Below, piece after piece: positions 20,998-60,690 of a DNA stretch of 64,000 bases. Origin of the DNA: Buttiauxella selenatireducens (GTDB lineage: Bacteria; Pseudomonadota; Gammaproteobacteria; Enterobacterales; Enterobacteriaceae); NCBI RefSeq assembly GCF_031432975.1, contig NZ_CP133838.1:4278001-4342000 (forward strand), written 5' to 3'. Each line of letters starts with the position of its first letter. The first letter of the stretch is position 1. The notes under the pieces were generated by a model. The model was not told the origin of the DNA, did no database searches, and was given only the letters and a program-made list of their open reading frames with translations. Both the position numbers and the translations under genes were made by a program.

Positions 20998-21075
20998 CTG
21001 ATGCCCTCACCCTAGCCCTCTCCCACGTGGAGAGGGGGAAAACCATAGTCCCTTTTCTCCTCAGGGAGGGGGGCA
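20998..21075. repeat. REP-like GC-rich palindrome cluster
   Basis: Two palindromic units: CCCTCTCCCACGTGGAGAGGG and CTCCTCAGGGAGG, with the flanking ATGCCCTCACCCTAG arm. The same family occurs at 31114, 57784 and 60566. It lies after yaeH, upstream of the shared terminator. Confidence 0.8.
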
Positions 21076-31113: not shown

Positions 31114-31276
31114 TCCCCTCCCCCTTTGGGAGAGGAAGAAACCCGGCAATTCCCCTCTCCCTTTGGGAGAGGAAGAAAACCGATAATTCCCTCTCCCTCA
31201 GGGAGAGGGCCAGGGTGAGGGTGGTTTTAGTCAATAGCCCCCTCATCCCAGCCTTCTCCCCCAGGAGAAGGAGAAA
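31114..31276. repeat. REP-like palindrome array between hemL and fhuB
   Basis: Several copies of the CCCTCTCCC...GGGAGAGG palindrome: units near 31120, 31155, 31190 and 31250, the last weaker (CCTTCTCCCCCAGGAGAAGG). Arms GGCCAGGGTGAGGG and CCCCTCATCCC flank them. The array fills almost the whole space between two convergent genes and has no separate classical terminator, so it may end transcription from both sides. Confidence 0.85.
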
Positions 31277-50965: not shown

Positions 50966-51397
50966 TCAATAATGGTGTAGTAACACGAAGGGGGGATTTT
51001 TTTGTTGCTGATGCCAAAGGCTGGTGATGTCGCCCCCGCCATGCTCAACAATATGGTCGCGGAACGCTTCACTGGTCAACGTGGTTCGATACGCACGCAT
51101 CGCGAACAACACGGGTAACGTAACGCCGGAGATCACTTCACAATGGGTATGTTGGTGGCTGATTAATGCCGCAGTACGATAAGGGGCGGCCCCGGCCTGG
51201 TCGGTCAAAAAGACCACCCCGTCACCCGAATCACAATTGTACAGCGCATCACACATCATACGACTCAGCATATTGGTGCTCAGTCCCTTCCAGTAATTCA
51301 CCGAACAACATTGAGCCTGAGGCCCAAAACGACGCTCAATTGCATCCAGCATATCCTGAGCGTAGTAGTCATGACCCGCAATCACCCAACCTAACAT
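50966..51397 (-). CDS. yadI: PTS mannose-type EIIA component YadI
   Basis: Stand-alone EIIA domain of the mannose-sorbose PTS family, 143 residues. The start is the ATG at 51397, behind AGGAGAA-like GGAG; the protein begins MLGWVIAGHDYYAQ, with the phospho-accepting histidine at residue 9. The usual middle motif VVFLTDQAGAAP is present. No EIIB, EIIC or EIID genes lie near it, so it may be an orphan regulator rather than a transport part. It shares a direction with yadE, yadG and yadH, but a 602-bp spacer separates it from yadH. Confidence 0.9.
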   Translation of the reverse strand: MLGWVIAGHDYYAQDMLDAIERRFGPQAQCCSVNYWKGLSTNMLSRMMCDALYNCDSGDGVVFLTDQAGAAPYRTAALISHQHTHCEVISGVTLPVLFAMRAYRTTLTSEAFRDHIVEHGGGDITSLWHQQQKNPPFVLLHHY

Positions 51398-51502
51398 GGC
51401 ATTCTCCTTTTTGCAGGTCGACAGTGTGCCAAGGTGAGATTTTTGCGCTGTGATACGAATCAATAGCAGGTAAGAAAATTCTTAATTTATATCCCCTTTC
51501 GG

Positions 51503-51520
51503 TTGTCTCTTAGTCACAAC
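51503..51520 (+). repeat. Left terminal inverted repeat of the 475-bp element
   Basis: TTGTCTCTTAGTCACAAC. The nine bases TTGTCTCTT differ from the Tn5 mosaic end start (CTGTCTCTT) only at base 1, and TCA-A follows as in the IS50 inner end. The same bases can also form a small GTTGT/ACAAC hairpin. Confidence 0.65.
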
Positions 51521-51959
51521 TTTGAGATTAGTATGAGTTGTTTATGCCAAAAGGGGTGAAGGTTCCGTTCACCCGAAGTTTTCCGTTACATGCAGCCACC
51601 GAACCGGTGAACGACTTAGGGTGGTCAACGTCAAAACCTAAGGTCAAAAACAACACCGGTTTTGACCTTGTTCCCGGTATAAATTGCCCCAGTGTTCCCC
51701 ATAAATCGGGGTCACGTGGTCGGGAACCACGTGAGAGAGCGATCGTCAGGAACGAATCGCGAACGACCCTGATGTTGGGGATAAGCTGGGGTTTACCGCT
51801 TCAGCGGCAATTTAAAACCGGGCGCCGAGGTCGCCAGGAGGATGGCGTAATCCTCCTGGCACGTTCACCGTTTACAACGGTTACAGGGATAGCCAAACCC
51901 ACGGGTGAACGGAAAATCTGCGCAACTTACAGACCTCACCCTGAAAGACTACTTGAGTC

Positions 51960-51977
51960 AATCTGTATAAGAGACCG
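51960..51977 (-). repeat. Right terminal inverted repeat of the 475-bp element
   Basis: Read on the minus strand: CGGTCTCTTATACAGATT. The run GTCTCTTATACA is identical over 12 bases to the Tn5 mosaic end, and eight of them (GTCTCTTA) are shared with the left end. Confidence 0.7.
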
Positions 51978-51999
51978 CTTCTCAGGGAGGCTATGAAAA

Positions 52000-52770
52000 T
52001 TAGCTACGCAGGCCACGCCCACGTTGAATCAAATACCAGCACAGAATATAGAATGCGGTGATAAAGCCGACCAGTACCGTGATGGTGAACAGCAGCGGTA
52101 CGTCATTGATGCCCAGGAAGCCGTAACGGAAACCACTGATCATATACACCACGGGGTTCAAGTGGGACAGCGCCTGCCAGAACGGCGGCAGCAGCGTCAG
52201 AGAGTAGAACACGCCGCCCAAATAGGTCAGTGGAGTCAGCACAAAAGTGGGGATCAGGCTGATATCGTCAAAGGTTTTGGCAAACACCGCGTTCAGCAAA
52301 CCCGCCAGCGAAAACAGAATTGCCGTCAGTAACAGCGTTAACGCGACAAAGAGCCATGAATGAACCTGGAATGGCACGAAGAACAACGAAACGGCCGTCA
52401 CCATAACCCCAACGCACAAGCCACGTGCCACACCGCCACCAACGTAACCCGCAATAATGATATGGGTCGGCACCGGTGCCACCAGCAACTCCTCAATGTT
52501 GCGCTGGAATTTTGCGCTAAAGAATGAAGACGCTACGTTGGCATAAGAGTTAGTGATCACCGCCATCATGATCAAACCCGGCACGATGAACTGCATGTAA
52601 GTAAAGCCATGCATTGAGCCGATTTGCGAGCCGATCAAGTTACCGAAAATAATAAAATACAGGGTCATAGTGATGACCGGCGGTACTAGCGTTTGAATCC
52701 AGATACGCGTGAAACGATGGATTTCTTTGGTCCAGATACTTTTTAACGCTACCCAATAGAGATGCATCAT
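52000..52770 (-). CDS. yadH: ABC-2 type exporter permease YadH
   Basis: Inner-membrane permease of 256 residues with about six hydrophobic segments and the ABC-2 signature around FVLTPLTYLGGVFYSL. It pairs with the ATPase YadG; the exported substrate is not known. Its start overlaps the yadG stop by 4 bp. The stop codon lies 22 bp from the structured element at 51503-51977, so a yadGH transcript that is not stopped would run into it. Confidence 0.95.
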   Translation of the reverse strand: MMHLYWVALKSIWTKEIHRFTRIWIQTLVPPVITMTLYFIIFGNLIGSQIGSMHGFTYMQFIVPGLIMMAVITNSYANVASSFFSAKFQRNIEELLVAPVPTHIIIAGYVGGGVARGLCVGVMVTAVSLFFVPFQVHSWLFVALTLLLTAILFSLAGLLNAVFAKTFDDISLIPTFVLTPLTYLGGVFYSLTLLPPFWQALSHLNPVVYMISGFRYGFLGINDVPLLFTITVLVGFITAFYILCWYLIQRGRGLRS

Positions 52771-57783: not shown

Positions 57784-57926
57784 TTTTCCCCTCCCCCTAA
57801 CCCTCTCCCAACGGGAGAGGGAACTGTTCGGTTTTCTCCCTACCCTGTCAGAGCACGGTTTTCTCCCTCTCTTGTCAGAGCCGGTTTTCTCCCTCTCCTC
57901 GTGGGAGAGGGCCGGGGTGAGGGCCA
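57784..57926. repeat. REP-like array with a 26-27 bp tandem repeat, between gcd and cueO
   Basis: REP-like palindromes (CCCTCTCCCAACGGGAGAGGG near 57800, and CCCTCTCCTCGTGGGAGAGGG near 57890) flank three tandem units that each begin CGGTTTTCTCCCT. The units start at 57829, 57856 and 57882; the first two end in TGTCAGAGC and lack a right palindrome arm. It fills the space between the convergent gcd and cueO and has no other terminator. Confidence 0.85.
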
Positions 57927-60565: not shown

Positions 60566-60690
60566 CTGATGCCCTCACCCCGCCCCTCTCCCACGGGGAG
60601 AGGGAGAAAAGCGGAGAGTCCCCTCTCCCACGGGAGAGGGAGAAAACCGGACAGTCCCCTCTCCCTGAGGGAGAGGGTTAGGGTGAGGGG
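60566..60690. repeat. REP-like palindrome array between acnB and yacL
   Basis: Three palindromes of the form CCCCTCTCCC...GGGAGAGGG near 60586, 60630 and 60656, spaced by GAGAAAA(G/C)CGGA(G/C)AGTC, with outer arms ATGCCCTCACCCCG and GGTTAGGGTGAGGGG that are inverted copies of each other. It begins 8 bp after the acnB stop codon and would form stem-loops in the acnB 3' region. Confidence 0.85.

Follow-up and report, generated by a model that had tools for sequence, protein, structure and literature searches.

A worn Tn5/IS50-ended element, probably non-autonomous and mobile in the past, in the yadH terminator hairpin of Buttiauxella selenatireducens

The element between yadH and yadI

The window analysed here, a 64,000-nucleotide stretch of contig NZ_CP133838.1 of Buttiauxella selenatireducens, carries a 475-bp element (51503-51977) between the genes yadI and yadH, both located on the minus strand. 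According to the list of open reading frames, yadH extends over 52000-52770, and yadI begins with an ATG near 51397 and has its stop side at 50966; both gene names come from an earlier note on this DNA. The yadH gene is 94-97% identical to that of four named Buttiauxella records. The earlier note had placed a palindromic insertion with Tn5/IS50-like ends and without a transposase at 51503-51977, and its sequence and boundaries proved correct. The claim that no transposase is present also held, as the single long open reading frame of the element (152 aa) has no Pfam match at E<=1. Rfam searches returned sub-threshold matches only, none of which reached the gathering score.

The element is flanked by the two halves of the yadH terminator hairpin (51985-51991 and 51490-51502 on the minus strand, the split hairpin spanning 51490-51991), identified from the intact hairpins of empty sites, and the insertion lies at the hairpin loop. 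Next to its ends are the copies of a decayed 8-bp target duplication. By comparison with empty sites, the left copy is CCTTTCGG (51495-51502) and the right copy is CTTCTCAG (51978-51985); in the minus-strand orientation of yadH they read CCGAAAGG and CTGAGAAG, respectively, and are identical at 5/8 positions. Sequence comparison identified the terminal repeats: the left one, TTGTCTCTTAGTCACAACT (51503-51521, plus strand), agrees with the left end of the family at 17/19 positions, and the right one, CGGTCTCTTATACAGATTG in its minus-strand reading (51959-51977), is decayed and agrees with the family right end at 14/19.

The body is rich in inverted repeats. Three pairs of blocks were found by the search tool (51563-51582/51895-51914, 51602-51613/51862-51873 and 51673-51688/51806-51821), with centres at 51737-51747. 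The earlier note had described four matched blocks, the fourth of which, CCCCAG, is shorter than the length limit of the tool and was recovered only as part of helix 3 of the alignment structure described below. Inverted repeats and alignment together define a remnant of a left inverted arm, TTCCGTTCACCCG ... CCGGTGAACG (51563-51613, plus strand), and alignment, covariation and a covariance model match at 51673-51822 (157 bits) define a remaining structured unit of about 247 nt (51671-51917, plus strand). Within this unit, alignment structure and covariation place hairpin 1, CACGTGG[TCGGGAA]CCACGTG, at 51713-51733 with the loop GGA at 51723-51725, and hairpin 2, GCGATCG ... CGAATCGC, at 51739-51760 with the loop GGA at 51749-51751. 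Hairpin 3, GCCAGGAGGAT ... ATCCTCCTGGC (51833-51860), corresponds to helix 9, in which 8/9 pairs have changed on both sides across the family. The stem CGTTCAC ... GTGAACG (51862-51911), helix 11, lies near the outer side of the unit and is nearly invariant, so it falls outside the covariation test. Folding of the region 51490-51990 yielded z-scores of -7.72 as RNA and -7.71 as DNA, and none of 100 shuffled sequences was as stable. Further copies, alignment and empty sites show that the whole element (plus strand) belongs to a dispersed family of non-autonomous elements and has been partly deleted. The window copy is decayed, and most of one of its two inverted units is gone.

Terminal repeats, further copies and empty sites

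Compared with the mosaic end of Tn5, TTGTCTCTTAGTCACAACT from 51503 and CGGTCTCTTATACAGATTG from 51977 on the minus strand are the best 19-mers of the window, with four mismatches each. Matches with up to six mismatches were equally common in shuffled windows, so the ends of the window copy prove little by themselves, and it is the relatives that substantiate the Tn5/IS50-like ends. In better-kept relatives the left end is typically CTGTCTCTTAGTCACATCT and the right end CTGTCTCTTATACACAACT, and these share 16-18/19 bases with the corresponding ends of two IS50-group insertion sequences (ISs; L221 and L230) and of ISEc13. The left-end pattern occurs in 11/12 and the right-end pattern in 10/12 genomes of the genus, and the reversed-pattern controls occur in none. 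One genome, G009, contains 16 two-ended elements of 257-726 bp with intact Tn5/IS50-type ends; ten of them show exact 8-11 bp duplications, at the ends or within two bases of them, and the remaining six have no exact duplication. These ends and duplications bear out the reading of a non-autonomous element of IS50 type. The search for paired ends gave 41 records and, after removal of three false pairings, 38 (34 shorter than 1000 bp and four longer), two of the short ones (L001 and L162) representing one site in two genomes. Across the 38 records, the identity between flanks is maximal at 9 bp (0.52 vs 0.39 for swapped partners), and six duplications are exact.

Ends of this type were also seen elsewhere. 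In genome G194, which has two matches to the IS50-type transposase profile PF14706, a 157-bp element (L204:1501-1657) has matching Tn5-type ends and no match to the structured unit; its 10-bp duplication, ATCTTATAGT, is exact and is centred on a hairpin. Single structured units of genus g175 (L199, L200, L201, L395 and L402) have left ends like CTGTCTCTTAGTCACATTT nearby.

Copies of the element are numerous in the genus. BLAST found 26 matches in the genome of the window, spread over 11 sites, and, in the first search, matches in 10/10 other Buttiauxella genomes, one of which (G006) has a single 56-bp match; none of the 49 genomes from outside the genus had a match in that search. The second copies called for by the mobile reading of the earlier note are thus present. 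The small size, the multiple copies and the absence of a transposase (the Pfam scan covering the open reading frame of the window copy) are those expected of this class of element. Because only 4/11 sites in the genome of the window keep a recognisable end, the family looks old there. When a two-armed relative was used as the query, long matches extended to two more genera (g89 and g95). Positions 435-514 of this query are a separate short repeat, so the resulting tally of 48/343 genomes and 29/154 genera does not measure how widely the element occurs. Genus g95 is probably Cedecea, judging from the yadH-yadI gap of one of its genomes (G105), which is nearly that of the Cedecea neteri and Enterobacter sp. 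Ag1 records; within Buttiauxella, G007 and G002 have gap sequences identical to the ones in B. brennerae and B. agrestis. Copy numbers from the searches with the two-armed query, with PF14706 across the order and with the covariance model are lower bounds, as few candidates were scored per genome. Neither the window copy, searched by BLAST in E. coli genomes, in plasmids and in phages, nor the two-armed relatives L198 (in E. coli) and L175 (in plasmids) gave a match.

The longest elements of G009 contain a separate repeat of about 80 bp (L175:1017-1106), which by itself has matches in many further genomes of Enterobacteriaceae and in which two GGA-loop hairpins are visible by eye. ERIC was considered as the identity of this nested repeat but received no support, the primer sequences ERIC1R and ERIC2 being absent from L175 at up to six mismatches.

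The element is missing from all nine other Buttiauxella yadH-yadI gaps that were read, and each of the nine retains a hairpin resembling a terminator, usually CCTCCCCGAAAGGGGAGG; in four named Buttiauxella records the element is likewise missing from this place. The sequence is therefore not a fixture of the locus in all relatives, as filled and empty sites are both found. The same site is also filled in G060, a genome of the same species as that of the window (G000), where the element has the opposite orientation. The elements of G000 and G060 are 80-85% identical, and their flanks are 95-98% identical. Such opposite and divergent bodies within similar flanks would be explained by two independent insertions into one hot spot, but the two genomes have in common the differences between their duplication copies (CTGAGARG and CCGAAAGG). 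These shared differences suggest one old insertion, followed by inversion or exchange of its body; two separate events seem somewhat less likely.

In G009, the yadH-yadI gap (L315, about 245 bp) contains a different, palindrome-rich insertion, of GTCGGATAAG type by eye; the terminator hairpin is intact in this gap despite the insertion.

The folded unit and its relatives

The structured unit was matched 244 times in the loci examined, and 94 of these matches are distinct and near full length. Among the 34 two-ended records shorter than 1000 bp, 15 contain two inverted units, ten contain one and in nine the model detected none; the nine unit-less records may represent different elements or members with internal deletions. 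The body of the element was originally composed of two inverted copies of a unit of about 250 nt whose folded structure is maintained. Two alignments were made: A1, with the window unit and 34 of 37 non-redundant units, and A2, with 29 of those 35. The 35 aligned units form 65 pairs in 11 helices, with 96.8% of the cells paired, and 33 of the 65 pairs show changes on both sides. Cells changed on both sides number 256, compared with 72.8 after shuffling and no more than 41 when the partners were slid, the latter a control in which the structure is favoured because it was derived from the same alignment.

In the 37 non-redundant units (below 90% identity), 1962 cells comprise 1888 Watson-Crick pairs, 34 G-U, 11 A-C and 29 other combinations. 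Such a scarcity of G-U is compatible with upkeep at the DNA level or with a constraint that both strands be able to fold. The unit might accordingly be a DNA palindrome without any RNA function, maintained because template switching corrects quasi-palindromes or because single-stranded DNA is under selection, an explanation that would account for so few G-U cells against 1888 Watson-Crick ones. It does not account as readily for the apical loops of hairpins 1 and 2, where GGA is retained in 90 and 93 of the 94 units while the stems vary, nor for the unit strand having more G-U than A-C (34 vs 11), and few G-U would also be expected if both strands must fold. Maintenance purely as DNA is on this evidence plausible, though it seems the weaker choice. 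Preservation of the host terminator by the body was also considered. In folding of 29 of the 34 short two-ended records (240-800 bp), the flanking stem halves re-paired equally often when the body was shuffled and the terminal repeats were kept (94% vs 90%), and in 71% after shuffling of the whole element. Re-pairing at equilibrium thus needs the terminal repeats and not the body, and this role received no support. The conserved structure of the body therefore requires another reason, either an RNA role or palindrome upkeep.

Relatives of the unit were sought with a covariance model, R1, built from its first 153 positions, whose E-values are rough owing to a short calibration. R1 matched in 12/394 genomes of the order, four from Buttiauxella and eight from five other genera of Enterobacteriaceae. 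Among 15 distant loci examined, Tn5-like ends were found as a pair in L402, from genus g175, where they enclose a single unit at a distance of about 333 bp from each other, and as one end in L395; the same genus has a 333-bp two-ended record, L199, with a weak unit match (26 bits). Since relatives without Tn5-type ends exist in other Enterobacteriaceae, the unit probably predates these ends.

One of the distant units found by the covariance model, L380, extended the analysis to E. coli, where it matched 5376/5426 genomes at a median of three places; it was the only query to do so, the two-armed L198 giving no match there. The best match covers 64% of the query and no place reaches 80%. No annotated feature underlies the 15 L380 matches listed. 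All three E. coli loci inspected (L406:701-960, L407 and L408) were matched by R1 over all 153 positions, at 52, 39 and 28 bits. A copy was seen near tauA in strain ECONIH4; the region upstream of tauA in K-12 has no model match. The E. coli units may be the sequences known as RSA/BEE95. This intergenic repeat of E. coli shares the architecture of the unit, but it consists of a single unit, without Tn5-type ends in the copies seen, and has ANGGA loops where those of Buttiauxella have CNGGA.

Strong covariation, and relatives of the unit in almost every E. coli genome, are also what a vertically inherited structured RNA, or a regulatory region of yadH-yadI that never moved, would show. Such a stationary sequence should not, however, be missing from 9/9 other Buttiauxella gaps that keep the terminator, have copies at many unrelated sites, end in terminal repeats with duplications or stand in opposite orientations in two genomes of one species. 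Vertical inheritance of an immobile RNA is thus largely contradicted and highly improbable.

CsrA binds the motif ANGGA (N being any base) in hairpin loops. Every one of 18 distant units has at least one GGA-loop hairpin, 12 have two (counted by eye) and 15 have ANGGA in one hairpin or more. The loops of Buttiauxella are mostly CNGGA, with some TN before GGA, and C is also found in three units of g175. They resemble the binding hairpins of CsrA/RsmA in the GGA of the apical loop and the variable base before it, and differ in having C, not A, two bases before GGA; they are candidate sites only. As a working hypothesis, the likeliest role of the unit would be that of a folded RNA domain with two GGA-loop hairpins in read-through transcripts. 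A more far-reaching proposal, which we consider speculative and unlikely as a whole, is that an old GGA-loop RNA unit of CsrA type, the E. coli-wide repeat, was captured between Tn5-type ends in Buttiauxella and close genera, frequently as two inverted copies, and adds CsrA-sponge or 3'-end structures to transcripts by way of terminator centres. If this were true, an inverted pair of units would give the read-through 3' end of the host a sense copy in either orientation of insertion.

Mobilisation and insertion at palindrome centres

The past mobility of the family is evident from its ends, the duplications of relatives, the empty orthologous sites and the insertion at palindrome centres. We consider it very probable that 51503-51977 is a worn, non-autonomous element with Tn5/IS50 ends, inserted in the yadH terminator hairpin, with a body derived from inverted folded units and moved by an IS50-type transposase acting in trans. 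Mobilisation by such a transposase, as proposed in the earlier note, is suggested by the ends, the duplications, the choice of target and the IS50-group ISs with matching ends that exist in other Enterobacteriaceae and in E. coli. PF14706 matched in 14/343 genomes of the family and 26/394 of the order (overlapping samples), and in 0/12 genomes of the genus. Because of this absence from the 12 genus genomes the mobiliser is an inferred one, although a relic MITE does not require an autonomous partner. An IS50-type transposase supplied in trans would have cut and pasted the element into the centre of a palindrome, here the loop of the yadH terminator hairpin. Palindrome centres would be tolerated because an inverted-repeat element placed in the loop leaves the stem halves able to re-pair. 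The window copy has lost most of one arm, and its ends and duplication have decayed.

The position of insertions relative to palindromes was scored by taking the best palindrome within 12 bp, with ties broken towards the centre, and counting it as centred when it lay no more than 2 bp from the centre of the duplication. For this target analysis 14 IS records were added to the 38 end-pair records. A palindrome is centred in 31/34 two-ended records shorter than 1000 bp and in 12/18 IS50-group ISs, compared with 31.8% of random positions; when at least 7/11 pairs were also required, the values were 23/34, 12/18 and 8.1%. The 18 ISs comprise 13 of ISEc13 type from E. coli, one of the IS4 family from a Rahnella plasmid and four from other genomes; two of them (L371 and L375) share one site in two strains, and two others (L363 and L364) both lie in ibs-type repeats. 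When flanks were swapped between MITE records, the palindrome remained centred in 75.6%, because many records share one target palindrome, and the sites are therefore not independent evidence of a structural rule. The common target type is the palindrome CCCTCTCC-N-GGAGAGGG, of which there are 247 in the genome of the window and 143 in G009; among the other Buttiauxella genomes that were counted, six have just 11-22 each. The window itself has seven, vs 0 expected, some of them close together (21016-21036, 31189-31209, 57801-57911 and 60584-60677). Insertion at the centres of palindromes, such as terminators, recurs and adds to what the earlier note had described. That Tn5 sites are often palindromic has already been stated (PMC1525189). 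The accessible parts of the open-access literature searched contain no description of the element or of terminator-centre targeting by IS50-group ISs.

Among known systems, the IS50-group ISs of the IS4 family (Tn5/IS50 and ISEc13) are similar to the element in their terminal 19-mers (16-18/19), duplications of 8-9 bp and frequent insertion at palindrome centres, but the Buttiauxella element has no transposase and its body is unrelated. ERIC and REP/BIME sequences are likewise intergenic, non-coding, palindromic and dispersed. They are given as 127 bp for ERIC and 21-65 nt for REP (PMC3751351); the Buttiauxella element is longer and, unlike them, has Tn5-type ends and duplications. REP-targeting ISs (IS1397, IS621, ISPpu9 and ISRm22), of which ISRm22 also belongs to the IS4 family (PMC1525189), insert into intergenic palindromes too, but they carry a transposase and have REP as their target, whereas here a MITE enters terminators and CCCTCTCC-type palindromes. 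If the present reading is correct, the family would supply naturally occurring MITEs with Tn5-type ends, for which well-preserved copies, empty sites and duplications are available, and would connect the mobile element of a single genus with an unannotated, strongly covarying repeat that has relatives in nearly every E. coli genome. It would also suggest that IS50-group elements, including ISEc13 of E. coli, often target the centres of GC-rich hairpins such as intrinsic terminators. The insertions of ISEc13 type (L362-L375) have mostly exact 8-bp duplications and are often centred in terminator-like hairpins close behind genes.
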